From contig JAFLKN010000014.1 in NCBI GenBank assembly GCA_019163175.1, positions 1 to 64,000 on the forward strand: a stretch of DNA of 64,000 bases, given 5' to 3'. Shown piece by piece: positions 7,808 to 60,582 of this stretch. The translations under genes were made by a program, and so were the position numbers. This DNA comes from Prolixibacteraceae bacterium. GTDB lineage: Bacteria > Bacteroidota > Bacteroidia > Bacteroidales > Prolixibacteraceae. Under the pieces are notes generated by a model. That model saw only the letters and a program-made list of their open reading frames with translations. It was not told the origin of the DNA and ran no database searches. The stretch's first letter is position 1, and every line of letters begins with the position of its first letter.

Positions 7808-7814
7808 TGCAATT

Positions 7815-9008: not shown

Positions 9009-9026
9009 CGATCTGCTTTGTTATTT

Positions 9027-10250: not shown

Positions 10251-10305
10251 AATTATTCAGTTAAAACTCAGATTGTGGTTCATTTAATACACTCATAAAA
10301 TTTTA

Positions 10306-10337
10306 CCTTCCGGATAAATGTTAGTTTACCCGGAAGG
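10306..10337 (-). terminator. Possible hairpin between MFS and tandem TIM-barrel genes
   Basis: Arms CCTTCCGG (10306-10313) and CCGGAAGG (10330-10337) pair perfectly around a 16-base loop. On the minus strand the 3' arm is followed by a short A/T-rich tract (GTAAAATTTTATG). It lies in the 107-base gap after the MFS stop codon. It may be a weak terminator or attenuator that lowers expression of the tandem glycosidases, or an mRNA-stabilising stem. The U-tract is poor, so termination is uncertain. Confidence 0.4.
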
Positions 10338-10357
10338 AACTGAAAATTTATATCGTG

Positions 10358-14828: not shown

Positions 14829-14832
14829 TCAG

Positions 14833-35766: not shown

Positions 35767-35783
35767 ACCCAAATAAACCGATT

Positions 35784-41211: not shown

Positions 41212-43584
41212 CTATTTGCTCATAGATGGAGGTGCATCTTCAGGTTTGCTGCCCCATTTTTTATTGGGCTCAGCCCCCATTTTAAATACAAGCGTTCCGC
41301 CATCAGTAATTTCTTTCTGAGATAGCCAGGTTTTGTTCATGGGTTTACCATTTAAGGTAGCCGATTGAATATATTTATTGACTGCAGAGTTGTTCTCCGT
41401 TTCAATAGTGAAGGTTTTTCCCTTACCACAATCAAGGCTAGCTTTTCCGAACAGAGGACTACCAATAACATAAATTGCTTCTCCGGGAGTAACCGGGTAA
41501 ATGCCCATTGCACTCAAAACATACCATGATGAGAGCGATCCCATGTCTTCATTTCCGCACAAACCGCCGGGTCCACTACGATAGAGTTCTTCAGTTACCT
41601 GCCGTGCCCTCAATTGTGTTTTCCAGGGCTCGCCGGCATAGTTGTAAAGATAAGCCACATGATGTGAGGGTTGATTGCCATGCACATACTGACCAATTGT
41701 ACCTACCACGCCTACATATTTAGGTGCTGAAATATTCGGGTTCATTTCGAAAAAAGTATCCAGTTTTGAGGTAAATGCCTTGGGACTGCCAAACAGGTTA
41801 ATCAAGCCTTTTACATCGTGCTGAACCGACCAGATGTACTGCCATGCATTCGATTCGGTGTAATGACGGTTGGGGCGTTTGCCAACCAAAAGCGGATCAA
41901 AATACTTGTAGTACGATTGCTCACCCTCTTTAACAATTTCCTGCTCACGACCGTTTAACGCTTCCAGCCACGAACCATCAGCCTTTTTCGGGCGCATAAA
42001 CTGTATTTGGGCATCCCACAAATTTTTATAGTTTCCTGCCCTTTTCATGAATGTCTGATAATCTTCTTTTTTGCCAAGTTCTTGCGCCAGCTGGGCGATA
42101 CACCAATCGTCGTAAGCCAGTTCCAGTGTGTTCGGAACCGATTCGGTCACCTTGTCAACTGGCGTATATCCTAATTCCAGGTAAAACTTAAGTCCCGATC
42201 TTCCGGCAGAATGTGGTACCGGAAGTTTAGGTTCCTCCAGCGCCTTTTTACGCATGGCCTCATAAAGGAAATTCACATCAAAATCCCGGAAACCTTTCAT
42301 GTACGCGTCAACAATTACCGGAATGAGGTGATCGCCAACCATGGCTTCGCCATAAACATTCAGGAAATGCTGTGCCGGAAGCCAACCGTAATCTTTGGTC
42401 TTCGCCACAATCGACCGAATAAAATCATTCACATGGTCGGGCGCCGTCAAGGTCAAAAGCGGATGTTGGGAGCGATAAGTATCCCAACATGAAAACGATC
42501 CGTAGAAATCATATCCTTTGGCTTCGTGTACTTTCTTATCCGAGCCCATGTATTTTCCATCCACGTCCTGAGAAATGTACTGCGCCAAAAATGAATGATA
42601 GAGCGCTGTATAGAAAATTTCTTTCTGCTCATCGGTAGCGCCATCAATTTTAACTTTCGACAATTCTTTAGTCCAGATTTCACTCGCCTTATTTCTGATT
42701 CCATCAAAATCCCAATCATTAATTTCTGCATTTAGATTCTTTCGGGCACCTTCAACACTGGTGTATGAAATTCCTACCTTCACCAAAATCTGTTCATTTT
42801 CCTTTGTCCTGAAGGTGACAAAAGCACCAATATTTTTTCCGTTTTCGCCATTTTTGTAGGGCCAGATGCTTCCACCCGATTCAGGAGTCTTCAGATCGTT
42901 GTCAAACGTTCCGTAATATGCAAATGGTTTGCTGAATTCAGCAACAAAATACAATTTGCCCAATCCGGCATTTTTCACACCCTCAATCCGCTTATTATTC
43001 AAAATGCTTAATTCAGATAGCTCATTGGATGCGTTACTTCCGATTTGATGACCCAAATCCAGAATAATACGTGCACTTTCAGATTTGGGAAAAGTGTACC
43101 GGTGAAAACCAGCCCGCTGTGTTGAAGTCAGCTCGGCTTTTACATTTTCGTCTTTCAGGAAAACGGAATAATAACCGGGCGAGGCGGTTTCACTGCTGTG
43201 ATCAAATCTTGAGCGGTATCCTTCGTCCGGATTTTCAAGCGATCCGGGTGTAGTCTGAAGTTTTAATCCGGTAGTCGGCATCAGGAGCACTTCTCCCCCA
43301 TTCACCATTCCCACGCCGCTCCAGTGCGTATGACTGAAACCCATGATTGAACTTTCGGAATAGATGTATCCGGCGCAGTAGGTCCAGCCCTGTGTGTGCA
43401 TATCGGGACTCAGATGAACCATGGCAAACGGCAAGGATGCACCGGGGAAAGTATGGCCAAAAAAATCGGTTCCCAAAAACGGGTTTACATGATTTACCGG
43501 ATTATCATTCTGAGCAAAAATAGCTGGTAATGCTGAGCAAAGAACAAAACTAACAAGTACTAACCGGAGAACAAAGCGTTTCAT
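41212..43584 (-). CDS. GH92 alpha-mannosidase
   Basis: The 790-residue protein has a cleavable signal peptide (MKRFVLRLVLVSFVLCSALPA) and a canonical GH92 sequence: VNPFLGTDFFGHTFPGASLPF near 32 (FFGHTFPGASLPF), MGFSHTHWSGVGM near 80, DGSFSCWDTYRSQHPLL-like YGSFSCWDTYRSQHP near 360, the acid Glu block ESNAWQYIWSVQHD near 577, HGNQPSHHVAYLYN near 636 and CGNEDMGSLSSWYVLSAMG near 677. It should be a calcium-dependent alpha-mannosidase in the periplasm or outside the cell. It has no lipobox, unlike the GH92 proteins at 26895 and 38808. It is the last gene of its run, 46 bases after a propeller/helical protein, and is followed by the shared terminator. Confidence 0.95.
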   Translation of the reverse strand: MKRFVLRLVLVSFVLCSALPAIFAQNDNPVNHVNPFLGTDFFGHTFPGASLPFAMVHLSPDMHTQGWTYCAGYIYSESSIMGFSHTHWSGVGMVNGGEVLLMPTTGLKLQTTPGSLENPDEGYRSRFDHSSETASPGYYSVFLKDENVKAELTSTQRAGFHRYTFPKSESARIILDLGHQIGSNASNELSELSILNNKRIEGVKNAGLGKLYFVAEFSKPFAYYGTFDNDLKTPESGGSIWPYKNGENGKNIGAFVTFRTKENEQILVKVGISYTSVEGARKNLNAEINDWDFDGIRNKASEIWTKELSKVKIDGATDEQKEIFYTALYHSFLAQYISQDVDGKYMGSDKKVHEAKGYDFYGSFSCWDTYRSQHPLLTLTAPDHVNDFIRSIVAKTKDYGWLPAQHFLNVYGEAMVGDHLIPVIVDAYMKGFRDFDVNFLYEAMRKKALEEPKLPVPHSAGRSGLKFYLELGYTPVDKVTESVPNTLELAYDDWCIAQLAQELGKKEDYQTFMKRAGNYKNLWDAQIQFMRPKKADGSWLEALNGREQEIVKEGEQSYYKYFDPLLVGKRPNRHYTESNAWQYIWSVQHDVKGLINLFGSPKAFTSKLDTFFEMNPNISAPKYVGVVGTIGQYVHGNQPSHHVAYLYNYAGEPWKTQLRARQVTEELYRSGPGGLCGNEDMGSLSSWYVLSAMGIYPVTPGEAIYVIGSPLFGKASLDCGKGKTFTIETENNSAVNKYIQSATLNGKPMNKTWLSQKEITDGGTLVFKMGAEPNKKWGSKPEDAPPSMSK

Positions 43585-43630: not shown

Positions 43631-45946
43631 CTAATATAAATCAGGCCTTTTCGGACCATCATAAGGTTTGGCTCCAACTAAACCGGGTTTGGATTTGCTA
43701 ACTAAGATCAATTCCGGATTTTTAGTTTCAGGAGCCTGAATAAAGCCATGATAGCGGGCCATCCAGTAATCTCTTAAAAAACTGGTTGGCTCCCTTACAA
43801 CCCTGCCGCCAGAACCACCATCTAAAACAGTGGCATTTCCGCTACCTATGTATACCGATGTTTCACGGGGCGACAAACTCTTTTTTGCACCTTCGTACGA
43901 AATATATCCGGGTTCAATATTCAAATCATCGCGCTCCGAATTTCTGTAGTTGTGCTGCACACAGTCCAAAGTCATTTCGCGCAAATGTTTGACCGCTTTA
44001 TCCAATTCGCATTCATTTCCGGTTAATGCACCATACGAGAAATTATACCAAGGCAAATGTTCCATTCGTTTCACCTCCCAGGTACGTTCGAGGCTGCGCA
44101 GATAAACTGACCGGAGGGCCGGATCGCTGGCATAGCGAAGTAGTGTATTGTAACTTTCGAATGCCAGATTATCGTCCCAAGGAGCTAATGTTGCAGGCGG
44201 AAATGTATTTTTCTGGCGGATTGTGTTGGTATGATAACCCCAGCCGATTAGCTGTTTCAAGCCATTACTGAATTTTGAATCACCTGTAATGGAGAAAGCT
44301 GAATGCATAAAAGCCAAAGCTTCCAGTCCGTTTATTCCGCGGTCGTTGTAACCATACGGACGCAGAAGATACTCCGGATTCCAGCGTGCCCAACGTGTTG
44401 GCTTTCCATCCATGTCGTTCATCATCCATCCGCATTTCAAGATATATGAAGCCATCCGTTGCAAATGTTCTTTGGCCATTTCCTTTTCTTTGCCTTCAGC
44501 CACCAAATCGTAAAAAAGCGAGACAGCATAAAAATGGGCAGTAACTTCATCACTCGAGGTATCGCCTTTCCAAAACCATTTTCCATCAGCTGTTGGATAC
44601 CATTTTGCGGGTAATCCGCCTGAGCCCTGTTTGCCCATTTCATCCTTATCAGCCGTTGTAGACCAAATAGATCGGGCAATAAAACCTTCGGTCTGCGTAA
44701 TTTTTTGCAGCCAAATCATTGCTTTGAACGATTCGATTGCCTCAGCTTTTGCAGTTGGATCACCGGTAGCAGCATATTTATAGCTCATTGCTGCCAGATA
44801 AGTGGCCGTATGACCACCGTCATTGTCGCTGACTTCGCGAACCCATTCGCCATCTTTTTGGTACAGCATGTGCATAAATCCAAGCCGTTTATGTCCCCAT
44901 TCGTTGATATGATTTTCGTAATATGCCGCCTTCTTCTGGAGTGTATAAGGTTCATAGTGAATAACTCCGACTCCCTTTTCTGTAGCCACATAAACCACTT
45001 TATCGCCAACGGCAATGCCATTTACCTGATCGCCGGGTAACCAGTGATCGCCCCCGAAATAATGCCAGTCGTTCTCAAGCATCCTCACCGCACCATTTGA
45101 GGTTCCAATCCAGACATCACCATCAAATCCCTTTTCAAGGCAAGTTGTATTCTCAACAGGCAGGCCATTGGTGCCTTTGAGTATGGTTAAAGTAGCGCCA
45201 CGCAGAACACCAAGACCTTTGTTGGTACCGATCAGCAAACGTGTTCCGATGCTTAGCAAATCGCGTGTAACTTTTGACGGAAGCATGCCCCAGTCGATAA
45301 AGTCCTCATTCACAACCAACCCATCAAAAAGAATTAATTTATCGGGGCGAAGTAAGTATAGGGTTCCGCCATAGGATTCAATTCGCTTGATTGGACCCAA
45401 CTCGACCGGAGTGTCATGCAATTGCGATCCGTCTTCCATAAGCATGGTCACATCGCTCGAATAGTAACCACCTTCAGGTTTAATCGAACTAAACTTACCG
45501 TTTTCGAACCTGTAAATTTCGTCTTTGGTAGCTGCGTGCAATTTTCCCTGGTGTATGCACAGATCGACGTATTCCCGATCGTCAATTTTTGTCCAGACTG
45601 TGCCCGATAATTTATAAATTCCTTTTGAGCTAAGTGCCCAAAGATCGCCAGCCTCTGGCATGAGTCTGCGAACTCCTTCCGGAGAATTCTTTTCGGCAAC
45701 AAAAGCTCCATTACTCAGTGCTGAAATTCTTCCTTCGAATACGGCATAGCATTTACTGTTCTGAACAGCAATGGATTGAACCGGCGAAATTGTAGGTATT
45801 TTTTCGGCTACCTCTTGCAAATAAACATTGTCCTGCTGCGGTTTCCACAAATGAGCCAAAGTTTTGTCTGGATTTTGAGCCGAAAGTGTATTGGACAAAA
45901 TGCTCAGAAATAAAGCAAGTTGAATTGATTTAAAGTAAGTTTTCAT
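43631..45946 (-). CDS. Secreted beta-propeller and helical-toroid protein, copy 2 of 4
   Basis: The 771-residue protein has a signal peptide (LALFLSILSNTLSAQ). The N-terminal half (about 45-325) is a regulator-type propeller with blades such as AGDLWALSSKGIYKL, IGTRLLIGTNKGLGVL, DGDVWIGTSNGAVRM and VVYVATEKGVGVI. The helical half repeats the shared blocks: VSDNDGGHTATYLA near 372, GFIARS near 418, WKGDTSSDEVTAHFYA near 462 and DGKPTRWARWNPEYLLRP near 505. GNECELDKAVKHLREMTLDC near 680 replaces the DWSI-N-x-x-R-x-D block of the other copies. The C-terminus ends with SYWMARYHG-like DYWMARYHGF. It is flanked by GH92 and a metallophosphoesterase. The function is unknown and a glycan-active enzyme is the best guess. 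Confidence 0.72.
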   Translation of the reverse strand: MKTYFKSIQLALFLSILSNTLSAQNPDKTLAHLWKPQQDNVYLQEVAEKIPTISPVQSIAVQNSKCYAVFEGRISALSNGAFVAEKNSPEGVRRLMPEAGDLWALSSKGIYKLSGTVWTKIDDREYVDLCIHQGKLHAATKDEIYRFENGKFSSIKPEGGYYSSDVTMLMEDGSQLHDTPVELGPIKRIESYGGTLYLLRPDKLILFDGLVVNEDFIDWGMLPSKVTRDLLSIGTRLLIGTNKGLGVLRGATLTILKGTNGLPVENTTCLEKGFDGDVWIGTSNGAVRMLENDWHYFGGDHWLPGDQVNGIAVGDKVVYVATEKGVGVIHYEPYTLQKKAAYYENHINEWGHKRLGFMHMLYQKDGEWVREVSDNDGGHTATYLAAMSYKYAATGDPTAKAEAIESFKAMIWLQKITQTEGFIARSIWSTTADKDEMGKQGSGGLPAKWYPTADGKWFWKGDTSSDEVTAHFYAVSLFYDLVAEGKEKEMAKEHLQRMASYILKCGWMMNDMDGKPTRWARWNPEYLLRPYGYNDRGINGLEALAFMHSAFSITGDSKFSNGLKQLIGWGYHTNTIRQKNTFPPATLAPWDDNLAFESYNTLLRYASDPALRSVYLRSLERTWEVKRMEHLPWYNFSYGALTGNECELDKAVKHLREMTLDCVQHNYRNSERDDLNIEPGYISYEGAKKSLSPRETSVYIGSGNATVLDGGSGGRVVREPTSFLRDYWMARYHGFIQAPETKNPELILVSKSKPGLVGAKPYDGPKRPDLY

Positions 45947-45970
45947 AGTTTTAGGTTTAGTGGTTCATAT

Positions 45971-46954
45971 CTATTTAACCCCCATAAATGAAGCCGGAAA
46001 GGAACACTCCTGAACTTTCTTTCCATCAGCTTCCCTGATCCAGGTATCGAATTCGTATTTCCCTTTTGTCAAAACGATGACACGTCCTCCGGGCAATGGA
46101 TCTTCAACATTTTTCATTTTTTTAGTTACGCGTCCGTATGCCAATGCAATATTGTGGTAAACACCGATGTAGTCGTTGATGTGATCGTGGCCCACAAATG
46201 TTCCCATTACATCACCACATTCGAGTAGTGCTGTAAACATTCCTGAATTGATTACCGGACTACATTCTTCTTCGTTTTTTACTCCGATTGCTTTAATTGC
46301 AATGTTTTTCCATGCCTGAGTATATTCAGGAAGCGGAATATGAAAAAATGCCAATGCCGGTAACGGTTGCCCACCATTTAATTTGGTAAATTCAGCACTG
46401 TTTTTGCGATACCAGGCAATTTGCTGAAAATCGATCCATCCATATCCTCCAACTTTGGGTTCCAGTGTACTGTAATCGTTGGAATCCAGACAATACAAAA
46501 CGGCTTCCGTTTTTTTCGTATTCCCCAATACAGGCAAAATAAAATTCGAATTTCCTTTCATATCGCCTTTGTCATTATTCAAACAGAATGGAAGGCTTTG
46601 AATAAAGTCAGCAACTTTCTTACGATCATAACCGCGCTCCGACTCGTGATTTCCAAAAACCACTGCCCACGGAATTTTTGCATTGGAAAATACTTCAGCT
46701 AAACGACGGAAACCTTCTTCCGGGTTCTCTTCAGTAACAATATCGCCGGTAAGCATTGCCAAATCAGGCTTTTCCATTTCAAGTACTTTCCGAATGGTTT
46801 CATAAACATCCAGATTATCGCCATCAACCAGATGGATATGCGTATCGGTAAACTGAACAATCTTAAACTTTCCTGAATCATTAAATCTCAATTTGGGGCC
46901 TGCCAAAACTGATTGAACAAGGAAAAAGCAAAGCACAAAAAATAGACTCTTCAT
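45971..46954 (-). CDS. Secreted metallophosphoesterase (small type)
   Basis: The 327-residue protein has a signal peptide (MKSLFFVLCFFLVQSVLAG) and all calcineurin-like blocks: IVQFTDTHIHLVDG near 33, AMLTGDIVTEENP near 67, VVFGNHESERGYD near 96, FFHIPLPEYTQAW near 205 and FVGHDHINDY near 255. It resembles the small purple-acid-phosphatase-like enzymes common in Bacteroidota and plants. It lies 24 bases before the propeller/helical gene and only three bases after the larger phosphatase at 46958, so the two are probably co-translated. It should act in the periplasm on a phosphorylated sugar or a glycan phosphate; the exact substrate is unknown. Confidence 0.88.
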   Translation of the reverse strand: MKSLFFVLCFFLVQSVLAGPKLRFNDSGKFKIVQFTDTHIHLVDGDNLDVYETIRKVLEMEKPDLAMLTGDIVTEENPEEGFRRLAEVFSNAKIPWAVVFGNHESERGYDRKKVADFIQSLPFCLNNDKGDMKGNSNFILPVLGNTKKTEAVLYCLDSNDYSTLEPKVGGYGWIDFQQIAWYRKNSAEFTKLNGGQPLPALAFFHIPLPEYTQAWKNIAIKAIGVKNEEECSPVINSGMFTALLECGDVMGTFVGHDHINDYIGVYHNIALAYGRVTKKMKNVEDPLPGGRVIVLTKGKYEFDTWIREADGKKVQECSFPASFMGVK

Positions 46955-46957
46955 ATA

Positions 46958-48736
46958 TTATTTTTTTATTTCGAAGGAATCGATCAGTTTGTTTTCATTG
47001 TTGTAGGTCTGGAAACTCAAATTGGTTCCTTCAATTTTCACATACTGGTATAAATGTCCGGTAGCATTACGAAATTCGGCATAAGGCTCCGGAGTCATTT
47101 CATGCTCCCGGTTCGGTATTCCAACTGAAATGATGTAGGCCGTTCCATCGTTATACGACGATACGACCTTACCCTCCTTCATTGGTTTCGACCGCATGTA
47201 GTAATGAATATGACCACCGAAAACCATATCGACGTGATATTTATCGAACAGCGGAACCCAAGCCTTCTGTATATCGAAATAGGGCTCTTCCCAGTTGTAT
47301 GGTGGAAAGTGAAACATGGCAATTTTCCATGTCGCCTTGCTTTCGGCCAGTTGCTTTTCAATCCATGGAGTTTGAGGCTCCATCGGAGAAGTGGCATCAA
47401 TCATCAGAAACAAGGTATTTTTATAGCTAAACGAATAGGTTTGTTCTGTCGGAACACCTTCAGGAGCGTTCAACGGATAACTAAACTGGTCGCGATAAAG
47501 CTGTGCACCCAGACCGGCGCGGTTATCATGATTTCCGGGAACTGCCATCAATGGAATTGAATTGAAAACTTCCCGTGAATACTCAAAAAGCTCGTCCCAC
47601 TGATTCCGGAACAAACCATCGCTAACCAAATCACCAACAATGGAATAAAAAGCAGCATCAGGATGTTGTTCGTATGAAAGCTTAAGAATTTCGCCAAACT
47701 TTGGGGAGTAATGCGTATCGCCAAACCATAAAAATGAAAAAGAATTGTCGTCGGCTGAGGTATTGAAGCTACTGGCTGAGGACCAATCCGCTGTCTTTCC
47801 AACCACATACTCGTAAGTTGAGCCGGGTTTTAAATCGCGCAACCGGGCGGTGAAATGGTTGATATACCGGTCATTCATCAGCAATCGGTCTTCCAATCGG
47901 ATTCTTTCGCCACCAACTATCTGCTCTTCAGTTGTTCCCTTTACCCGGTATTTAAGTTCGCAGGTGGCAACAGTGGTGTCCGTTCTCCATTGAATATCAA
48001 TTCCTGTTGAAGGATCGGAACTCCAACTTAAATGAACCTGATCGGGATTAGCGGATGATGGATATTTGCTTGACCTGAAAGCCCCGATTAAATGCGATTC
48101 AGCAGTTCTTCCTCTGGTTGTTGTCAACAATTTTTGACCTTTCAGCGCATCAGGGACATCTGTCAATACCAATTCGTCCCAATCGTGATAGGTAAAAGCG
48201 CCATTATCCAGATTTTCTACAAATTGATTTTCAGGAAAAAAATTGCTGAGCGTAAGCTGATCATTTGTATTCTGCGGAGCAACCGAAACAAAATAGTGCA
48301 TTCCCAATTCCTGATCAAAGCCATTTACACCAAGGCCTACATGACCTGATTTAAAAGATTTTTGCCAGACCTCATAAATTGTCTGCTCGTTTTTCATTGT
48401 ATGCTCAGTTTTCTGGAAACCACTTTCAGGCAGCCAAAAAGGAATGACCTTTTGTTCGGCACTTCTCATCACTGAAACCACAACGGGAACATTGACATCG
48501 AAACTCCAGTGCTGCGTAGCCAGGGCATCTTTTTCATTCTGAGAAAACAAGGCCATGACCAAATCATTATTCAATGCTGACAGTTGTTTTTCGTCGCTGG
48601 TCTGGTACAATTTTGTAATAACATCATCCATTACAGTTTTAACGGATTTTGCCTCATGTTTGCAGGAACTCAAGCCTGAAACCAACACGGATATTAGTAA
48701 AATCGGAAATATTCTTGAAAATTGATATGCCTTCAT
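46958..48736 (-). CDS. Lipoprotein purple-acid-phosphatase-like enzyme with extra N-terminal domain
   Basis: The 592-residue lipoprotein (VLVSGLSSC) has three parts. Residues about 25-210 are an unrecognised domain. Residues about 215-305 are the fibronectin-like purple-acid-phosphatase N-domain (QVHLSWSSDPSTGIDIQWRTD, quoted as HLSWSSDP and IDIQWRTDTTVATCEL). Residues about 315-575 are the metallophosphoesterase with LWFGDTHYSP, YSIVGDLVSDG, AVPGNHDNRAG, MFHFPPYNWEEP and FGGHIHYYMRS. The last two parts closely resemble the whole protein at 60583, down to the WRTDTTV phrase, so they are paralogues and the N-terminal 180 residues are an addition. It is separated from the upstream gene by a 110-base gap holding a hairpin. 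Confidence 0.85.
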   Translation of the reverse strand: MKAYQFSRIFPILLISVLVSGLSSCKHEAKSVKTVMDDVITKLYQTSDEKQLSALNNDLVMALFSQNEKDALATQHWSFDVNVPVVVSVMRSAEQKVIPFWLPESGFQKTEHTMKNEQTIYEVWQKSFKSGHVGLGVNGFDQELGMHYFVSVAPQNTNDQLTLSNFFPENQFVENLDNGAFTYHDWDELVLTDVPDALKGQKLLTTTRGRTAESHLIGAFRSSKYPSSANPDQVHLSWSSDPSTGIDIQWRTDTTVATCELKYRVKGTTEEQIVGGERIRLEDRLLMNDRYINHFTARLRDLKPGSTYEYVVGKTADWSSASSFNTSADDNSFSFLWFGDTHYSPKFGEILKLSYEQHPDAAFYSIVGDLVSDGLFRNQWDELFEYSREVFNSIPLMAVPGNHDNRAGLGAQLYRDQFSYPLNAPEGVPTEQTYSFSYKNTLFLMIDATSPMEPQTPWIEKQLAESKATWKIAMFHFPPYNWEEPYFDIQKAWVPLFDKYHVDMVFGGHIHYYMRSKPMKEGKVVSSYNDGTAYIISVGIPNREHEMTPEPYAEFRNATGHLYQYVKIEGTNLSFQTYNNENKLIDSFEIKK

Positions 48737-48774
48737 ATTTCAAATTGAATAAAATAAATGAGTAGAAATTTTAT

Positions 48775-48812
48775 AAAGGCGTACTGAAACAAATTGTTTT
48801 TCGTACGCCTTT
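48775..48812 (-). terminator. Hairpin between propeller/helical protein and phosphatase genes
   Basis: Arms AAAGGCGTAC (48775-48784) and GTACGCCTTT (48803-48812) pair perfectly, and the 18-base loop can fold further (AAAC with GTTT). It lies after the stop of the gene at 48847. The minus-strand sequence past it (ATAAAATTTCTAC) is only weakly T-rich, so it may be a partial terminator or an mRNA-end stabiliser. Confidence 0.5.
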
Positions 48813-48846
48813 AACCAAACCTAAAACCCCGTATTGAAAATTGTGT

Positions 48847-51084
48847 TTATTTTTTTATTTCAGGTTCACCTATTACACCAAGGTAACGGCCAATCCAATA
48901 AGGCAACAACCAAATGTCACCAGCACTATTTTCAGAACCACCCATTCCGGTATTATCCAGATTAAAACGGTTTTCGTTGTGTCTTGTAATCCGCAGTTCG
49001 TCGGGAGGAAGAACCTCTGAAATAGTTTGCCCCCTGAAATTCGGTTCAAGTTTCACAATATCTTTTCTATGGCTGTTGGATATAGACCAGTCTATCAAAT
49101 CCAGCGGATATTCCTGAAGGTACCAGACAGCCTCATTCAAGTCAATGTTGTCTGCTTCAACTAAGGCGGTCATAATATTCCAAAGACCCTCTTTTTCAGG
49201 GCGTTCAATCTCAAAATGATCAATAATTGCCTCTTTATATCTGGCTTTTAACGTGTCGTTAAAAGCATACCTGTACAAACCCCAATAACCACAATAGTAC
49301 ATTTCATCATCAGAGTGGTTCCATTCTCCTGACAACATTTTACTCCAATCATCAGCATCGGCTGGCGCAATGCCAATTTCCTTCATAGGGCGCATCAGGT
49401 TTTCAAAATACCCATGTTCCTTCATCAAATAGAAAGCAGCTTCTTTATATTTCTCTTTTTTTGTAAAATGGTAGGCTGTCTGCAACATCCCAATGATATT
49501 GGAGGAGTTAATTTTACGGTCACCAACATTTTTAGGACGAGCATTTACATACTCCGGATTCCAACGACCCCAACGGGTAGGCTTGCCGTCCCAATCGATC
49601 ATATAATAATCATTTTTCACAACATGCGACATTAAGGTATCAATCAACATGATTGCTTTATTCTTTAGTTCTGGTTCAGCAACAAGTTCAGCAATTGCAC
49701 CAAAAGCAAAGATATGGCCGATTGCTTCGTCGCTGCTTGTGGTCGATTTCCAGTCCCACTCAGGATCAACTGCATTTCGCCACGGTTCACCAACCACATC
49801 AGTTAAATTATAACCGGTTCTTTCAAACGAACGCGAAGGAAATCCTGAGTTTAAAGAGTTGATGGTATAAAGTCGCTCCATAGCATCGAGTGATTCACGA
49901 ATGTTCTGCAATGCTTCATCTGATTTGGTTACAGTATAACGAAAAGTTTCTCCGGCCAAATACATTGAAGTCCATAAACCGTCGTTGTCCGAATTTTCCA
50001 TACTTCCGGTAGTAACATCTCCATTTACCATTCTGGATACGGTTGCATTAAAGCCGGTTCGTATATGACGATCACGTACCTGTTTTTCAAAGAAAATGGC
50101 CTTTTCATGCAAAGTCATCTCTTCAAAACAGATTTTACCCAATCCGCTGTTCGTCAAAATTAATACTGAATTCTCAGGACCTTTTGAAATATGAATTACA
50201 GTATCCGAAGGAATCCATCGTTGCGAAGCATAGTAATTAAATTTACCATCTTCGCGAAGCATCATAGCACCCCAGGTTGATCCAAACCAAAGGTTACCAT
50301 CAATTTGACTAATTGAAGTTAGTTCCGTCCAAGGCATTTTTTTCTGAATCTCACCAGTTTGCTTTTGGGTTTTAGTATCAATTTCGTAAAAACCATCAGT
50401 TGTTCCAACAATCAGCTTGTTCGAAGTTAAACCCATGCAAGTTGCAGTGGCATCAGTTGTTACTTTCGATAACTCATTTTTTTCCGGCGAAAAGGCAAAA
50501 ATTGAAGGTTTACCTAAAATCCAGAAGAGGTTGTTCGATTCATCATACTTGATGTCTTTTACTTGTTCACCGGGAAGGGAACCTTCCCATAATTTTTTTG
50601 AATCTTTCAGTAAATTTAATGCCTTTCCATCTGAAATCAAGAAAGCAAAATCTCTTCCGCCGGCAAAAATCCTTGCATCAGCTAAGGTATGGCGCGAGTA
50701 CAAATTACCTGCCCATGCGTTGCTTAAAACAGCTTTATCATCGATATAAACGAGTTGATCATGATAAATCCCAATAGCAGATATTTTTTTATCCGAGGTT
50801 GCCCGATCCTGCATATCTTTCACCAGAGTTCCGGGGAAAAGAAATTGTCCGTTCCTTGTGCGCATTAAACCTTTTGTTGAAAATACTTGCACATATCCGT
50901 TTCGGTCTGCTACTGCATTTATCAGTTTTGCATCTTTCAGCTCCAGATTGTACTTAATACTGTAATCCTGAACAAAGGCTTTATCCTGATGTGTCTGAGT
51001 AACTTTCTTTTCAGTTTTTGTATTGCATGAAGCAACTGCAAAGGCCAAACTCAGTATGGCAATTTTTATTAAGGTTGTTGTCAT
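48847..51084 (-). CDS. Lipoprotein with beta-propeller and helical-toroid domain, copy 3 of 4
   Basis: The 745-residue lipoprotein (lipobox AFAVASC) is the same length as, and closely similar to, the gene immediately upstream (51100), from which it is 15 bases away; the two are a tandem duplication. The propeller (about 45-320) has blades such as DGNLWFGSTWGAMMLREDG and NKLIVGTTDGFYEID. The helical part has NSDNDGLWTSMYLAGETFRY near 363 (NSDNDGLWTSMYLAG), GFPSRSFERTG near 408, WDWKSTTSSDEAIGHIFAFG near 445, WDGKPTRWGRWNPEYVNARP near 510, and DLIDWSISNSHRKDIVKLEP near 675, ending IWLLPYWIGRYLGVI. The conserved Asp, Glu, His, Arg and Trp set in this half suggests an active site. No family name can be given. 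Confidence 0.72.
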   Translation of the reverse strand: MTTTLIKIAILSLAFAVASCNTKTEKKVTQTHQDKAFVQDYSIKYNLELKDAKLINAVADRNGYVQVFSTKGLMRTRNGQFLFPGTLVKDMQDRATSDKKISAIGIYHDQLVYIDDKAVLSNAWAGNLYSRHTLADARIFAGGRDFAFLISDGKALNLLKDSKKLWEGSLPGEQVKDIKYDESNNLFWILGKPSIFAFSPEKNELSKVTTDATATCMGLTSNKLIVGTTDGFYEIDTKTQKQTGEIQKKMPWTELTSISQIDGNLWFGSTWGAMMLREDGKFNYYASQRWIPSDTVIHISKGPENSVLILTNSGLGKICFEEMTLHEKAIFFEKQVRDRHIRTGFNATVSRMVNGDVTTGSMENSDNDGLWTSMYLAGETFRYTVTKSDEALQNIRESLDAMERLYTINSLNSGFPSRSFERTGYNLTDVVGEPWRNAVDPEWDWKSTTSSDEAIGHIFAFGAIAELVAEPELKNKAIMLIDTLMSHVVKNDYYMIDWDGKPTRWGRWNPEYVNARPKNVGDRKINSSNIIGMLQTAYHFTKKEKYKEAAFYLMKEHGYFENLMRPMKEIGIAPADADDWSKMLSGEWNHSDDEMYYCGYWGLYRYAFNDTLKARYKEAIIDHFEIERPEKEGLWNIMTALVEADNIDLNEAVWYLQEYPLDLIDWSISNSHRKDIVKLEPNFRGQTISEVLPPDELRITRHNENRFNLDNTGMGGSENSAGDIWLLPYWIGRYLGVIGEPEIKK

Positions 51085-51099
51085 TGTTTGTTGATTTAG

Positions 51100-53337
51100 T
51101 TAATTTTTAACCGGTTCACTTATAACCCCTAAATAGCGCCCCATCCAGTAGGGTAATAACCAAATGTCACCTGCACTGTGTTCATCTGTTCCGTTACTAC
51201 CAGTGCGGTCAATATTAAACATGTTCCCATTGTGTCTTTGAACTGGTCTTTCATCAGGAGGAAGTACTTCTTTTAAGGTTTGATGCCTAAAGTTAGGCTC
51301 CATCTTTTCAATATCTTTACGATGACTATTCATTATACTCCAGTTGATCAAGTCGAGAGGATGTTCCTGTAAATACCAAACAGCTTCTTTCAAATCGTAA
51401 TCGCGATCGCCCAGCATTGCTGTAAAAATATTCCAGGCGCCTTCTTTTTCGGGCCGTTCGATTTCCCAATGATCAACTATGGCATCTTTGAATTTGGCTT
51501 TTAAATCTTCATTCAATGCGTATCGGTACAATCCCCAATAACCGAGGAAATACATTTCATCATCGGAGTGATTCCATGCATCTGACAATTCTTTGCTTAA
51601 CTCATCGGCATCAGCAGGAGCCATACCAATCTCTTTCATAGGTCTCATCAGGTTTTTCAGGTAGCCGTATTTGTCCATGAGCTCGACAGCTTTCTGCTTA
51701 AACACTTCCTTTTTTGTGAAATGATAGGCTGTTTGCAACATAGCAATGATATTGGAAGAACAGATTTTCCGGTCACCCACATTTTCGGGGCGGGCATTTA
51801 CATATTCCGGATTCCAGCGCCCCCACAAAGTAGGTTTGCCATCGAAATCGATCAAATACAGTTCGTGATCGACAATATGCTGCATCAAAATATCAATCAG
51901 GTGGATTGACCGCAGTTTTACCGATGGATCGTCAATAAGTTCGGCTATGGCTGCCATAACAAAAATATGACCGATAGCTTCGTCGCTGCTGGTCGTTGCT
52001 TTCCAATCCCACTCCGGATCTTTGGCATGCTGCCAACGGTCAGGGTCTGACAAAACCTTGATATAACCGCTGCGCTCAAACGAACGTGCCGGGAAACCAA
52101 CCGGATTCGAATTGATCGTATACTGGCGTTCCATGGCATCAAGCGACTCCAGGCAATTTTGCAGGGCATCTTCAGATTTTGTAACCGCATACCTGAAAAC
52201 TTCACCACCCAGATACATTGAAGTCCATAGACCGTCGTTGTCGGAGTCACTCAGGTATCCGGTCGATAAATTTCCGTGTTTCAAGCCATCCCATGAAGCA
52301 TTAAATCCGTTGCGGATATGTCGCTCACGAACCTGAGTTTCGAAATACAAAGCCTTTTCTTCCAGAGTCATGCTTTTGAAAAAAATCTGACCCAGCCCTT
52401 TGTCTGTCAATATCAAGACAGATGCATCCGGACCTTCTGCAATTTCGATAACTTTATTTCCCGGTAGCCAACGCTCCCCATTGTAATAGTTAAACTTCCC
52501 ATCCGGACGAAGCATAAAAGCCCCGAAATCGGAACCAAACCAAACCTTTCCATTGATCTCTTTTACACAGGTAATTTCGGGGCTTGGAAGCTTTGTATGC
52601 AGTTCACCAATTTGTTTTTTAGAACTGGTATTCCATTCCAGGTATCCGTTTTTTGTACCGATGATTATTTTGCTACCTTTTTCGACTACTTCGAATGAAG
52701 TAAATCCTTTGCCATCAAAGACTTTACTCAACTTTTTATCTTTCAGGCTAAAAGTACTCAGCGATTGATTTCCAAGTATCCAGAACAAGCCATTTGCTGC
52801 CGAATATCGGATATCGAGAATAGGGTCAGTTTGGTTACCTGTCCACAATACTTTAGAATCTTTAATGCATTTTAAGGTTTTGCCGTCTGACACCAGAAAC
52901 GTAAAATCATCACCTGCGGTGAATAAACTGGCAGTGGGCATTTCGTGCTTCGAAAATAACTTTCCGGCCCAGGCATTGCTCAAAACTGATTTATCATCAA
53001 GGTAAACAAACTGGTTTTGATACGAAGCCAGATCGACTATCTTTTTCCCTGCCATGGGGCGATAAGACTTATCTGCTTCAAGCGTTCCGGGATAAAGAAA
53101 CTGACCATCAAAAGGTTTCATTAAGCCTGCCGAAGTAAGAATCTGAATGTTTCCATTGCGGTCGGAAGCGACTTTTAGAAGTTGCAGTCCTTCGGTAGTG
53201 GAGTAGTATTTTACACTGTAGTCCTGTAAGAAAGGCACATCTTTGTGCACCGTTTTTTGAGCTTTTGCCAGATTAATACCTAACGGATCAATCAGTAAAA
53301 GGCATAAAATAAAAGCAAATTGGTTTAGGGTTTTCAT
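51100..53337 (-). CDS. Secreted beta-propeller and helical-toroid protein, copy 4 of 4
   Basis: The 745-residue protein has a cleavable signal peptide (FAFILCLLLIDPLGINLAKA) and not a lipobox, so it may be released where its tandem twin at 48847 is anchored. Its blocks match the twin: DSDNDGLWTSMYLGGEVFRY near 364 (DSDNDGLWTSMYLGG), GFPARSFERSG near 408, WDWKATTSSDEAIGHIFVMA near 445, FDGKPTLWGRWNPEYVNARP near 510, LDLINWSIMNSHRKDIEKMEP near 673 (LINWSIMNSHRKDI), and IWLLPYWMGRYLGVI at the end. The propeller holds DRNGNIQILTSAGLMKPFDG and GKVWFGSDFGAFMLRPDG. It lies 26 bases after the metallophosphoesterase at 53364. Different cell locations for near-identical enzymes suggest staged processing of one glycan. 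Confidence 0.72.
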   Translation of the reverse strand: MKTLNQFAFILCLLLIDPLGINLAKAQKTVHKDVPFLQDYSVKYYSTTEGLQLLKVASDRNGNIQILTSAGLMKPFDGQFLYPGTLEADKSYRPMAGKKIVDLASYQNQFVYLDDKSVLSNAWAGKLFSKHEMPTASLFTAGDDFTFLVSDGKTLKCIKDSKVLWTGNQTDPILDIRYSAANGLFWILGNQSLSTFSLKDKKLSKVFDGKGFTSFEVVEKGSKIIIGTKNGYLEWNTSSKKQIGELHTKLPSPEITCVKEINGKVWFGSDFGAFMLRPDGKFNYYNGERWLPGNKVIEIAEGPDASVLILTDKGLGQIFFKSMTLEEKALYFETQVRERHIRNGFNASWDGLKHGNLSTGYLSDSDNDGLWTSMYLGGEVFRYAVTKSEDALQNCLESLDAMERQYTINSNPVGFPARSFERSGYIKVLSDPDRWQHAKDPEWDWKATTSSDEAIGHIFVMAAIAELIDDPSVKLRSIHLIDILMQHIVDHELYLIDFDGKPTLWGRWNPEYVNARPENVGDRKICSSNIIAMLQTAYHFTKKEVFKQKAVELMDKYGYLKNLMRPMKEIGMAPADADELSKELSDAWNHSDDEMYFLGYWGLYRYALNEDLKAKFKDAIVDHWEIERPEKEGAWNIFTAMLGDRDYDLKEAVWYLQEHPLDLINWSIMNSHRKDIEKMEPNFRHQTLKEVLPPDERPVQRHNGNMFNIDRTGSNGTDEHSAGDIWLLPYWMGRYLGVISEPVKN

Positions 53338-53363: not shown

Positions 53364-54890
53364 CTAAGGTATTCGAAAAACACGCGAGGCCTGAAATACC
53401 TGGCCAAACATGTCGGTTGTTTTCACAGTAACGGTATGCGTTCCAGATGCTATTTCTTTGGGTAAGGTGGTTTGCCACATATGATCTGATTTGCTTGGCG
53501 AATCCATCGAATAGCCAAAAGAATCTTCCAGAGATTGCCCATCTACCGACTTTTGAAGCAGTGAACTGAGCTTGTGCATTCGAAGAATTTCAGGATCAAT
53601 GGCCTTAACCTGCTGAAGCGGTCTCCAAACGTTGAAGTTATCAATGCACATTTCAACTTTCGACCGCGCCGAACCAGCAAAAACATTGACTAAGATTTTG
53701 GTTGTATCCAACTCACTAATCTTTATTTCTTCAGGCAAATAAATATTCATCTGGTAATTCTCGGGCCGGCGTGCAGCTTTAAAACGGACGCTGTAATTTG
53801 CCCCATCGAATGTGATAACCGAATAGCCATTGGGAGCACCATCATTCATAGTAGCATGAGGTATGCCCAATTCGTCATTCAGACCACACCACCAGCTACC
53901 ACAAACAGTTGCATTAACCAGATGGTGATGAGTTTCGGTTCCTTTCCAGCCCATCTTTTTGTCAACAAACAGATTCAATTGTTCATGAGCATGACCGGAG
54001 ATAGAAAACGTATATTTTCTGTCGCTGATCAGATCAAAAATCTGTTCTTTGTTATCGCACATAACAATGGGTGCATGCATAATCAAAACTACCAGTTTAT
54101 TCTTTGGAACAAATTCAAGATAGTTTTTTACAAAGCTGATTTGTGAATCAGTAAAATGTGGAATGTATTTGCCATCAGGCTTGAAGTAAATATTATTGAA
54201 GTCAATAAAAACAACCTGTCCATACTCAAACGCATAGGTTGACGGGCCATAAATGCGCTTAAACGTAGCATCCTTTTCATCTGTATTTTTAGCTTCGCGA
54301 TCGAAGTCGTGATTACCAAAAGTATTGTACCATGGAATTCCGATTTGGGCAATTCCGTGGTTAATTTCATTAAAAAGCGCAGGGCCATCTGCAGTAATGT
54401 CGCCCAATGACACGCCAAAAATTGCATTGGTTCCGATGCATTCTTCCACCACATCATGATTGATATAATTGACTTCCTTTAATCCACGAGTCTGGGTATC
54501 GCCGAAAAACAGAGCAGAAAACTTCTTTGGTTCTTCAGATTTAACCAGTGGAAAATTGACAGAAGTAGTTGAAGCAACGGAGTCACTCTTTTTGTACAAA
54601 AAGAAGTGCTGCGGTATTTTGTCAGAATTCAGAGGCACTGCATAATTAGCAGGCTTTACTACAAAAAGGTTGGTTTCATTTCCAACAGGAAGTGTCCATT
54701 TCCCATCAGAATTGGTTTGTATCACCTCAGCTCCATTTGAAACACAAATACCTTTAATTCCCTTTTCTGCTGCATCAAAAGTTCCATTGGAGTTGCCATC
54801 AAGAAAAACAATTCCCGATACGAAATCCTGGCTGAATACACTACTTGACAGGCAGATGAAAAAGTAAAGGCAAATTAACCTGAGTTTCAT
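53364..54890 (-). CDS. Secreted metallophosphoesterase with MetallophosN/MetallophosC-type flanks
   Basis: The start is placed at the ATG at 54890, which begins the signal peptide MKLRLICLYFFICLSSSVFS; the frame extends nine codons further. The protein is about 508 residues. The N-terminal domain (about 20-110) is a small beta fold with GIVFLDGNSNGTFDAAEKGI, like SdrD-B or MetallophosN domains. The catalytic core has LFFGDTQTRG near 130, GVSLGDITADGP near 160, NTFGNHDFDREA near 185, IMHAPIVMCD near 265 and SISGHAHEQLN near 290. The C-terminal 170 residues match the calcineurin-type C-terminal domain, with GSWWCGLNDELGIPHATMNDG near 330 (quoted as GSWWCGLNDE and HATMNDGAPNG). It is the first gene after the SusD terminator, and a possible -7 box lies just upstream. 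Confidence 0.88.
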   Translation of the reverse strand: MKLRLICLYFFICLSSSVFSQDFVSGIVFLDGNSNGTFDAAEKGIKGICVSNGAEVIQTNSDGKWTLPVGNETNLFVVKPANYAVPLNSDKIPQHFFLYKKSDSVASTTSVNFPLVKSEEPKKFSALFFGDTQTRGLKEVNYINHDVVEECIGTNAIFGVSLGDITADGPALFNEINHGIAQIGIPWYNTFGNHDFDREAKNTDEKDATFKRIYGPSTYAFEYGQVVFIDFNNIYFKPDGKYIPHFTDSQISFVKNYLEFVPKNKLVVLIMHAPIVMCDNKEQIFDLISDRKYTFSISGHAHEQLNLFVDKKMGWKGTETHHHLVNATVCGSWWCGLNDELGIPHATMNDGAPNGYSVITFDGANYSVRFKAARRPENYQMNIYLPEEIKISELDTTKILVNVFAGSARSKVEMCIDNFNVWRPLQQVKAIDPEILRMHKLSSLLQKSVDGQSLEDSFGYSMDSPSKSDHMWQTTLPKEIASGTHTVTVKTTDMFGQVFQASRVFRIP

Positions 54891-54914
54891 AGTATTTCTC
54901 TTTAGTGATGAAAA

Positions 54915-54922
54915 CAAAGTTA
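54915..54922 (-). promoter_or_regulatory. Possible Bacteroidota -7 promoter element
   Basis: The minus strand reads TAACTTTG, an exact fit to TAnnTTTG, 25 bases upstream of the ATG at 54890. A TTTG that could serve as -33 box is not at the usual spacing, so this is only a candidate promoter for the phosphoesterase gene. Confidence 0.3.
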
Positions 54923-55056: not shown

Positions 55057-56751
55057 TTATTGCAGTAACCAGAATTTAGACCATGAACTGTCTTTACCGT
55101 CCTGAGCAGTAAATGCAGTCTCGACTAAACTACTTATCGCAGTTGCATAATTGGCAGCATTTCTGTTTTTCTCATTGGCATCATAACGAAAACGCAGTGG
55201 CATGGCATTACGTCTTCCTTTGGGGCCAAAAGCTAAATTTGGAAGACCAGTTCTTCTCCAGTCACACCATGATTCCATCGCCACATTCCAGTTAGCAATC
55301 CATTTTTGGGTCATAATCTGCTCTAAAGTGCCAGTATATTTAACTCCTGTGATTGCAATATACGTTGCATAACTTGCACCCACTCCCCAAGCATCGAGTG
55401 AAGCTTTAACACCTTTTTCATACCAAGATTGTTGTGCACCAACTGACCATCCTTTTTTTGCAGCTTCAGCAAGTATGAAACACACTTCAGAATAAGAAAT
55501 AAGTCTGGCTTTTAGCAAAGCACCGGTAGCACCTTTATATTGGTCGGCAAGAGCTGAAACGTGATCATTGTATCCCCCTTGTGTTGGAACAGGATTTAAA
55601 TTATATGTATATGGTTCAGCAGCAAGATAAGCAGTAGGTATACCTACATAATCCATAGTATCAACCAAAACTTTACCGGCTGTAACATCAGCAATCCATG
55701 TAGCTTTATTATAAACAACCATGTTTTTTGATGCCATATAAGCAGGGTCTAAATACCGAACACCATTTATTTTAGTATCAGTTAAAGGCAAGTATTTAGT
55801 AGTAACCTTAATCGGAACTTTAACTTTATTGAACCAAACAGCAATACGTGGGTCTTTCAATGCAACAAGTACATCTCTGAAACCAGCACCAAGTTGAATA
55901 CGGCTAAAATTGCTTTCACTTGTATCGTATTTTGTGTTTGCTGGCCATGAATCAGCATTTGATGTTCCAACATAACTCATTGTAGCATCATCATCATTTG
56001 CTGTAAAAATCGGATAAGTGGTAGAATTGGAAATAATTCCTTCAATACCAGATTTTGCATATTCAGGTAGTTTAGTTGAAACGCGAAGATAATATCTCAA
56101 CATGAGTGAATTAGCTAGCTTTCTCCATTTCAATGGATTTCCATTAAATAGAACGTCAGCATCCTTATTAATACCGGCATAAGCATCTACTGATTTTGAT
56201 AACAGAGTATTTGCTTTTTTCAGGTCTTCAATAATTCCTTTATAAATAACCTCTTGCGCATCAAATACTGGAAACATATCCTCTTGACCTCCTACTGGAG
56301 CGTTTAATGCTGCTGTATAAGGAGCATTTCCCCATCCATCGGTAATGTAACCAAAATTAAATGCTCTCAAAACTAATGCCATTCCCTGCTGAAATTCCAT
56401 ACCTTCATCTACTGATCTTTCATAGAGTTGCTTGATATTACGGAGATTTCCGTAATAGCCTTCCCATGAACGCTCAGTAATCCAGTCAAAGTTATTTAAC
56501 CCTGAACTCCAACCACTTTTTTGTACATATTGCATAACTCCAGCCAAATCGCCATTATAACCGTTTTCGAGGTAAGGCAATGCAGTGGCAGTAATAACTG
56601 TCGGAACTATTAAGTTAGGATTAACAGTCGAGGGGTCTACCCCATTCGGGTTCACATTTAATTCGGTAAGATCCTTGCACGAAGCAAAAACTACCAATAT
56701 TAGAACCAGAAATAATTTATAATGTGTTTTCATAAATTTCATGATTTTCAT
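55057..56751 (-). CDS. susD-like: SusD/RagB-like outer-membrane lipoprotein (SusD-like_2 type)
   Basis: The 564-residue lipoprotein (VLILVVFASC lipobox) is the surface glycan-binding partner of the TonB-dependent transporter encoded just before it (nine-base gap). The N-terminus of the mature protein, LNVNPNGVDPSTVNPNLIVPT (shown as NPNGVDPSTVNPNLIVPT), and helices with YVQKSGWSSG and RNIKQLYERSVDEG are those of the SusD-like_2 branch. The C-terminus contains WIANWNVAMESWCDWRRTGLPNL (quoted as MESWCDWRRTGLPNL) and MPLRFRYDANEKNRNAANY, both typical. Three in-frame ATGs occur near the start (residues 1, 4 and 7). It is the only SusD in the window, so the many enzymes probably share this one importer. 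Glycan specificity is not readable. Confidence 0.94.
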   Translation of the reverse strand: MKIMKFMKTHYKLFLVLILVVFASCKDLTELNVNPNGVDPSTVNPNLIVPTVITATALPYLENGYNGDLAGVMQYVQKSGWSSGLNNFDWITERSWEGYYGNLRNIKQLYERSVDEGMEFQQGMALVLRAFNFGYITDGWGNAPYTAALNAPVGGQEDMFPVFDAQEVIYKGIIEDLKKANTLLSKSVDAYAGINKDADVLFNGNPLKWRKLANSLMLRYYLRVSTKLPEYAKSGIEGIISNSTTYPIFTANDDDATMSYVGTSNADSWPANTKYDTSESNFSRIQLGAGFRDVLVALKDPRIAVWFNKVKVPIKVTTKYLPLTDTKINGVRYLDPAYMASKNMVVYNKATWIADVTAGKVLVDTMDYVGIPTAYLAAEPYTYNLNPVPTQGGYNDHVSALADQYKGATGALLKARLISYSEVCFILAEAAKKGWSVGAQQSWYEKGVKASLDAWGVGASYATYIAITGVKYTGTLEQIMTQKWIANWNVAMESWCDWRRTGLPNLAFGPKGRRNAMPLRFRYDANEKNRNAANYATAISSLVETAFTAQDGKDSSWSKFWLLQ

Positions 56752-60174: not shown

Positions 60175-60582
60175 AGACAATTTAGTTTTGTAAATAAATA
60201 TAGAATCTCAAATTAGGTAAAACTTCCCACAGGAAGTAAAATTTTCATATTCCAACGGAACAAATTTTAGAAATAAAAAAGGAGAAAGCTTATGGAATTT
60301 TATTCGAGTTACATCAAATATTAACTAACAAAATCTTGCTAAACCGATTTAAAAAAATCATTAAGTTAAAATTCCATTACACAAATGTTAATATTCCGAC
60401 ATTTGCTGAAGTAACCGGAAAACCTGCGTTTACGAAATAACTTTAAATAACCTTAAATAACATTAAAAGCAGAAAGCTTGTTCATCAACAAATCAATCTG
60501 CTTCTAACGTTATAATTTATTGAGATAAAGTTTTGGCCTTAAATTCCTATATTAAATTGATAATCAAACTCCTTTTTTGAGG
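60175..60582. promoter_or_regulatory. susC upstream region
   Basis: This stretch of about 400 bases is A/T-rich and separates susC from the phosphatase at 60583, both on the minus strand. It holds the operator-like site at 60339. I see no exact TAnnTTTG; the closest is TAACATTTG on the minus strand near 60382. A tiny plus-strand frame preceded by GGAG near 60281 is dismissed as chance. Confidence 0.4.
60339..60352. promoter_or_regulatory. Second LacI-operator-like site, upstream of susC
   Basis: CTAAACCGATTTAA differs from the perfect palindrome at 15843-15856 in two of 14 positions and keeps the central CG. It lies about 165 bases upstream of the susC ATG, where a repressor or activator site could act. 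A shared regulator is inferred from this likeness only. Confidence 0.45.

Follow-up and report, generated by a model that had tools for sequence, protein, structure and literature searches.

Four propeller-barrel proteins of a Prolixibacteraceae bacterium probably represent an undescribed family of glycan-degrading enzymes

Four ORFs of one family

The first 64,000 nucleotides of contig JAFLKN010000014.1 (assembly GCA_019163175.1) from a Prolixibacteraceae bacterium, hereafter the window, carry four large open reading frames (ORFs), at 24020, 43631, 48847, and 51100, that a first-pass annotation had singled out as a candidate family of glycan-active enzymes. They are present as described, all on the minus strand, and encode proteins of 745-771 residues, named here after their first coordinate. 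The 24020 protein (24020-26275, 751 residues, member 1) has a lipobox and comprises a propeller followed by a helical barrel from residue 322 (DNA 24023-25312). Member 2, 43631 (43631-45946, 771 residues), starts with a signal peptide devoid of a lipobox, and its barrel begins at residue 329 (DNA 43634-44962). Member 3, 48847 (48847-51084, 745 residues), is of the 51100 type and has a lipobox, and member 4, 51100 (51100-53337, 745 residues), has a signal peptide without one; both barrels start at residue 318 (DNA 48850-50133 and 51103-52386, respectively). The suggestion that two copies are lipoproteins and two are released agrees with the LAGC and VASC sequences of 24020 and 48847, which fit the lipobox pattern, and with the hydrophobic N-termini without a lipobox of 43631 and 51100, all export calls being made here by a simple hydropathy and pattern rule and not by SignalP.

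The C-terminal halves align by blastp in all six pairs, with 27-69% identity over 401-446 columns and E-values from 0 to 3.5e-43, the closest pair being 48847 and 51100 (69% identity in the barrel half). The N-terminal halves of 48847 and 51100 align throughout (E 3e-99), whereas the other five pairs align over 67-128 columns only (E 3e-11 to 2e-4). Over their whole length, the three other proteins share 29, 27, and 26% identity with 24020. Chance cannot account for this likeness, which peaks in the helical half, and the four ORFs constitute one family. The 43631 protein and one relative form a long branch of the family tree, which is a quick tree with several long branches, and the tail that follows the 43631 barrel has a low-confidence structure in its AlphaFold2 model. 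The host genome holds six family matches, two of them on another contig.

The sequence blocks by which the family had been defined hold mostly in a looser form. SDNDG..T..YL, said to occur in most members, is literal in three of the four, 24020 reading DDNDG, and a DNDG block is common to all. GF..RS is present in the four proteins. W.WK.TTSSDE..GH and DGKPTRW.RWNPEY are each literal in two members only, and become general when relaxed to W.WK..TS[ST]DE...H and DG..T.W..W.P. In contrast, DW.I.N..R.D, claimed for three proteins, was found in one, and only its R.D is common to the four.

A propeller joined to a predicted (α/α)6 barrel

Pfam analysis reports a Reg_prop hit in 24020 (61 bits), and only sub-threshold propeller-type and stray matches in the other three. 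Via the propeller, the whole-length profile hits the BT4663, BT3049, and BT4673 sensor domains, which together with Reg_prop bears out the assignment of a regulator-type N-terminal propeller, and propeller matches are among those listed by the fold search with the full-length model. The N-terminal half thus resembles that of the hybrid two-component systems (BT4663 and relatives). As had been noted, the Pfam scan of the four proteins returns no kinase or DNA-binding part; a hybrid regulator was rejected, no kinase, response-regulator, or helix-turn-helix domain accompanying the propeller. PorZ of the type IX secretion system (NF052228) was also rejected, since its weak propeller match reaches 36.6 bits in 24020 and 15 bits in 43631, with no match in the other two, against a cut-off of 260 bits.

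AlphaFold2 modeling of full-length 51100 (97 sequences) yields a mean predicted local distance difference test score (pLDDT) of 94.3 and a predicted template modeling score (pTM) of 0.92. The 29 strands listed as far as residue 323 amount to about seven blades, and helices follow from residue 325. The barrel half of 43631 modeled alone reaches a pLDDT of 86.4 and a pTM of 0.89, and both models contain a ring of paired inner and outer helices. In the 51100 model, the last part of this ring is irregular, with short helices (residues 633-658) and a long loop (659-721). Foldseek analysis of the 43631 barrel half returns 635 matches. Among the best 50, nine have E < 0.001 and, apart from the putative exported protein 7tem, are 2-epimerases of cellobiose, glucose, or similar sugars; the further ones include YihS, a GH88 protein, BT_3782, Dfg5, GH76, GH9, GH146, and others (template modeling (TM) scores by query 0.26-0.45), as well as one SSV19 virus tail protein. 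Nearly all of these 50 matches are (α/α)6 barrels. The resemblance to an (α/α) toroid put forward in the first-pass annotation is therefore upheld by the model and by remote fold matches. The fold class is clear from the predicted structures, a propeller directly joined to an (α/α)6 barrel, and no close relative of known structure is among the matches listed.

Searches of the helical half against Pfam, NCBIfam, PHROGs, PDB sequences, and PDB folds returned no convincing match to a characterized family, CAZy and dbCAN not being among the databases searched. Pfam at E <= 0.01 reports no match in the helical halves of 50 members except DUF2750 in two (best E 8e-4), which was taken as chance since the other 48 have none. 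PHROGs gives nothing above noise (best E 0.17), the PDB sequence profile of the barrel gives eight chance-level matches at E <= 10 (best E 0.24, mostly M2-1 proteins), and the viral fold library gives nothing below E 0.001. A tblastn search of 51100 against 72,556 plasmid records found no match.

Conserved residues gather in the barrel

Conservation was computed from 97 sequences (38 effective), comprising 93 of 103 eligible locus proteins and the four window proteins. Columns conserved at 90% or more number 48 in the barrel half and 11 in the propeller half. The propeller columns that reach 85% hold mainly Gly, Trp, Leu, and similar residues, besides Q38 and, in the last blades, R289-W-L. In the barrel (51100 numbering), K328, R342, D452, R673, and D675 are conserved at 100%, D366, D368, and D662 at 99%, D592, R418, and H340 at 97%, and E453, N367, and H457 at 95%. 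The claim that all conserved acidic, His, and Arg residues lie in the helical half nearly holds, R289 of the last propeller blades being 97% conserved. The barrel half counts 22 D/E/H/R/K/N/Q positions at 0.88 or more: 11 acids, four Arg, four Asn, two His, and one Lys. Twenty of these 22 fall in the long outer-to-inner loops or in the first turns of inner helices, with 54-57% expected (p 0.0003-0.0006), the barrel faces being assigned from helix order. The long-loop face of such barrels is the usual active-site side. Furthermore, the inner helices 368-386, 451-467, 521-541, 590-605, and 722-736 are better conserved than the adjoining outer ones.

Distribution and domain variants

The family occurs in 7 of 23 same-genus genomes (the host included), in 8 of 41 genomes when all relatives are counted, and in 7 of 395 genomes of an even phylum sample (again including the host), a patchy distribution like that of polysaccharide loci. 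A GTDB scan returned at least 591 pattern matches and at least 575 confirmed stretches from about a dozen labeled phyla. The loci analyzed are the best 80 of these stretches ranked by similarity to 24020, so that 24020-type loci are over-represented. According to their titles, they come from Bacteroidota, Armatimonadota, Planctomycetota, Acidobacteria, Hydrogenedentota, Poribacteria, Calditrichaeota, Nitrospiraceae, KSB1, Victivallales, Verrucomicrobia, Paenibacillus, and one Thermoproteales archaeon; metagenome-assembled genomes (MAGs) make up many of them, the taxon labels being those of the titles. The genomes behind twelve of these loci hold 1 to 14 family matches each. The highest number, 14, was observed in genome G446 (behind L065, titled Hydrogenedentota), some of its matches being fragments.

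Of 121 near-full barrel proteins, 119 also match the propeller profile of the family itself. In the members of loci L084, L094, and L071, the barrel is preceded by just about 130-140 residues, not enough for a full propeller, which points to the last blades as its constant part. Among members with a long N-terminal half, 94 of 105 have a hydrophobic N-terminus. The remaining 11 include all three Paenibacillus members, which lack a strongly hydrophobic N-terminus and have ABC solute-binding proteins nearby, and the archaeal member looks unexported when judged by eye. These members without an export signal fit an intracellular enzyme better than a surface receptor. Locus L045 encodes a natural fusion of a GH20 hexosaminidase with a propeller-barrel unit (1408 residues), and L045 and L046 each encode two propeller-barrel units fused to each other (1484 and 1514 residues); these fusion ORFs lie at 7076-11302 and 11316-15770 in L045 and at 11351-15895 in L046. 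Lastly, a near-full 24020-type member accompanies the near-full 51100-type member in 26 of 27 GTDB loci, L069 being the exception, a pairing biased by the anchoring of the loci on 24020-like matches.

Genomic context

The four genes are surrounded in the window by genes for SusC/SusD, three GH92, one GH38, and two GH78 proteins, five metallophosphoesterase-type proteins, a GDPD, two BNR_2 proteins, a ceramidase-like protein, and AGE, ROK, SIS, and DHDPS proteins. Upstream of members 3 and 4 are the SusD gene (55057-56751) and the SusC-type receptor gene (56761-60180), both identified by Pfam and, like the genes listed next, on the minus strand. A single phosphoesterase gene, encoding a metallophosphoesterase with MetallophosN/C domains (53364-54917), separates member 4 from SusD. 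Pfam also assigns the two genes between members 2 and 3 to metallophosphoesterases (45971-46954, and 46958-48736 with a purple-acid-phosphatase (PAP) N domain), while member 2 adjoins a GH92 protein (Pfam/NCBIfam, 41212-43584). Another metallophosphoesterase gene (21795-22769) is near member 1, and a PAP-like protein (60583-61881) and the ceramidase-like protein (61917-63197, below the Pfam cut-off) are encoded further on.

Several other ORFs of the window deserve mention. Relatives of the ceramidase-like protein occur near the family in 9 of 80 GTDB loci, the archaeal MAG included (L072, 7885-9180). On the plus strand, 35751-37874 encodes a 707-residue protein made up of BNR_2 repeats and a YdjC-like domain, relatives of which recur near the family in other genomes. 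The AGE, SIS, ROK, and DHDPS-family genes (694-1959, 14169-15822, 33340-34248) resemble a candidate catabolic set of the amino-sugar or sialic-acid type. A PfkB-type sugar kinase fused to a HAD hydrolase (4620-6518, minus strand) has relatives near the family in 8 of 80 GTDB loci, and three ORFs of 369-437 residues (3500-4609, 6548-7861, and 7815-9008) return no Pfam match at E 0.001.

In the 80 GTDB loci, which do not include the window, the recurrent neighbor clusters are Gfo/Idh (19 loci), BNR_2 (17), SusC (15), SusD (13), DHDPS (10), ceramidase-like (9), HGSNAT (9), PfkB-HAD (8), GH78, GH92, and GDPD (5 each), and PAP (4). UxuA is found in seven, all from Dyadobacter. A 779-residue protein of L077 (5801-8140) has no Pfam match at E 0.001, and its cluster stands beside the family in five. 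Other Bacteroidota clusters have GDPD, PAP, MPP, BNR_2, YdjC, DHDPS, AraC, GH92, and SusCD genes in common with the window. In six picked loci, a family pair or triplet is divergent from genes for an extracytoplasmic function (ECF) sigma factor, SusC, and SusD. In the sequence analyzed of five of these, from Runella (L027, L028, L031, L038, and L043), the family pair and sigma-SusC-SusD make up the only recognizable glycan locus, and Gfo/Idh, in three, is the sole other named recurrent cluster. Spirosoma L033, the sixth, goes beyond a minimal locus with a third family gene and ceramidase-like, GDPD, PAP-like, and HGSNAT-like genes. For the 55 neighbors of these six loci, the Pfam tally shows 25 of 59 families, and none of the 25 is a glycoside hydrolase. 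In six other picked loci, GH20 matches account for 4 of 43 neighbors and HGSNAT for 5 of 43. Both sets were picked for gene order, and "5/6" is a description, not a test; Pfam tallies of the neighbor sets show 25 of 160, 59, and 44 families. Overall, the genomic context supports a glycan-catabolic role, in line with the reported setting among glycosidases.

Phosphatase genes were also counted. In 20 genomes, 24 of 81 family places have a listed metallophosphoesterase gene at most 10 kb away, where density predicts 2.3, and none of 37 GH88 places does (1.0 expected; 0 of 33 clusters), GH88 being present in 13 of the 20 genomes; counted otherwise, such a gene is near 14 of 56 family clusters and near the family in 12 of 20 genomes. 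This enrichment is indicative only, the genomes having been chosen for carrying the family and the members being clustered. The list used holds the 150 strongest of 290 metallophosphoesterase matches. The family places comprise 48 of 48 from the genomes behind the GTDB loci plus those from the relatives and the phylum sample that fall in the 20 genomes, three short fragments being left out (G022:C110, G004:C56:5790, and G004:C306:38696); genomes G008, G019, G021, G211, G219, and G423 are outside the set, and GH88 is represented by all of its 37 places. Among 108 neighbors, histidine phosphatases rank first of the Pfam families (5 of 108, all five in Paenibacillus), these 108 being part of 130 from picked, mostly non-Bacteroidota loci, out of 507 close neighbors. 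Recurring genes of the Paenibacillus loci are two of metallophosphoesterase type, those for histidine phosphatases, and one of exo/endo-phosphatase type.

Proposed function

Considering predicted fold, conservation, and context, the four proteins probably form an undescribed family of glycan-degrading (glycoside-hydrolase-like) enzymes, mostly exported. The first-pass proposal thus stands as far as fold, conserved residues, and context fit it; we infer the enzyme role and reaction, that is, a catalytic barrel, hydrolysis, and a substrate with amino sugars and perhaps phosphate. The barrel would be the catalytic half, a glycoside hydrolase whose oligosaccharide substrates may belong to a glycan with phosphate and hexosamine. 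Candidate acid/base residues (51100 numbering) are D366 and D368 of the DNDG loop together with D452 and E453 of the TSSDE motif, which H457, D592, R673, and D675 may assist. The propeller may serve as a platform or subsite, its best conserved part, the last blades, abutting the barrel, and the several paralogues per locus may cut different linkages.

A wider proposal appears possible, though we hold it only tentatively: the propeller and (α/α)6 barrel may define a new, broad family of carbohydrate-active enzymes (CAZymes), a glycoside hydrolase (GH) family or clan of its own, that by itself supplies the enzymatic core in a minimal SusC/SusD locus and, in other loci, acts with dedicated phosphatases, a hexosaminidase, and an N-acetyltransferase on an unrecognized phosphate-bearing, amino-sugar-containing glycan. 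A specific substrate, such as a glycosylphosphatidylinositol (GPI)-type, inositol-phosphate, or sialylated glycan, is only an idea prompted by the ceramidase-like, GDPD, phosphatase, BNR_2, DHDPS, and AGE genes, and is not claimed.

Several points weigh against a hydrolase. The role is a predicted one. The fold matches are remote (top E 1.1e-4, query TM no higher than about 0.45), and epimerases and lyases share the (α/α)6 barrel. Only 4-5 of the 80 GTDB loci contain each of the GH92, GH78, and PAP-like clusters. The phosphate part of the reading is weak, as 42 of 56 family clusters have no listed metallophosphoesterase in the surrounding 10 kb and the recurrent phosphatase clusters are missing from the five Runella loci. 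In addition, the PgSGL4 protein, of the same domain order, was inactive on the substrates tried, according to PMC12102758.

Relation to known families and alternative roles

The top fold matches, cellobiose and N-acylglucosamine 2-epimerases (PF07221; E 1.1e-4, TM 0.42-0.45), and the hint at uronic-acid or oxidized-sugar metabolism given by UxuA and Gfo/Idh raise the alternative that the same barrel belongs to a polysaccharide lyase or sugar epimerase family. We consider this unlikely. In the hhalign comparison SEPARATENESS, the alignments of GH76 (6 sequences), GH88 (16), and epimerases (19) recognize one another at 94% probability, and the family subclades do so at 100%, while the family profile reaches only 7 (6.9), 12, and 8.5% against GH76, GH88, and epimerases, respectively. 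With fewer sequences (7 for GH88, 10 for epimerases), the family scored 0.7 and 20%, respectively, and epimerases matched GH88 at only 31%. The GlcNAc 2-epimerase (AGE, PF07221), GH88/GH105 (PF07470), and GH76 (PF03663) families were accordingly rejected, none of their Pfam profiles matching. The conserved residues also differ: cellobiose and GlcNAc 2-epimerases use an active-site histidine pair, and the family conserves two His and 11 acids. The catalytic acids of GH88/GH105 and GH76 lie at the N-ends of inner helices, a position at which the family resembles them.

It is similarly improbable, and perhaps slightly more so, that the proteins are non-catalytic glycan-binding or sensor proteins combining a sensor propeller with a helical binding domain. 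The BT4663, BT3049, and BT4673 matches of the propeller and the lipoboxes in two of the four copies speak for this role. However, Pfam reports no signaling domain, the barrel acids and R.D are conserved across phyla at up to 100% and the propeller much less, and the Paenibacillus and archaeal MAG members have no obvious export signal. A tie to the SGL clan (GH144, GH162, GH189, GH192-194, and Group 4) is very unlikely and was rejected for want of a detectable sequence relationship. PF10091, which corresponds to GH144, has no match in the 50 barrels at E <= 0.01, and hhalign against 17 PF10091 (GH144-type) proteins gives 0.2%; PF10091 proteins reach only 0.1-2% against the other barrel families, so this test misses such links and would overlook a very remote tie. 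The sequence matches in the PDB are at chance level only, even though PMC12102758 names several SGL-clan PDB entries. There, Group 4 PgSGL4 (Photobacterium gaetbulicola) is described as a six-bladed propeller followed by an (α/α)6 barrel, with a signal peptide and no known substrate. The window family has the same domain order and differs by its about seven blades and the absence of the extra C-terminal domains. PgSGL4 of the β-1,2-glucanase clan is the closest architectural precedent, with no sequence evidence found for one family from the PF10091 proteins tried, PgSGL4 itself not being among them. Least probable of all is a role in which the barrel, with the recurrent phosphatases, acts not on ordinary glycosidic bonds but where the substrate is phosphorylated or joined by a phosphodiester. 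The metallophosphoesterase co-location and the Paenibacillus histidine phosphatases favor it, but the SusCD, GH20, GH92, and GH78 neighbors are glycan breakdown genes, and the 25 of 59 families shown for the Runella/Spirosoma loci include no metallophosphoesterase, the PAP-like gene of L033 notwithstanding.

Titles and abstract beginnings of open-licence PubMed Central text, to which the literature search was confined (CAZy was not searched), contain no description of the family. PMC11036162 mentions an unnamed six-hairpin protein in Maribacter.

Significance

If the barrel is catalytic, hundreds of proteins now labeled by their propeller only, if at all, would become glycan-degrading enzymes, and SusC/SusD loci that show no enzyme would gain one. 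The recurrent partners, hexosaminidase, N-acetyltransferase, phosphatases, and mannosidases, would then narrow the choice of the glycan.

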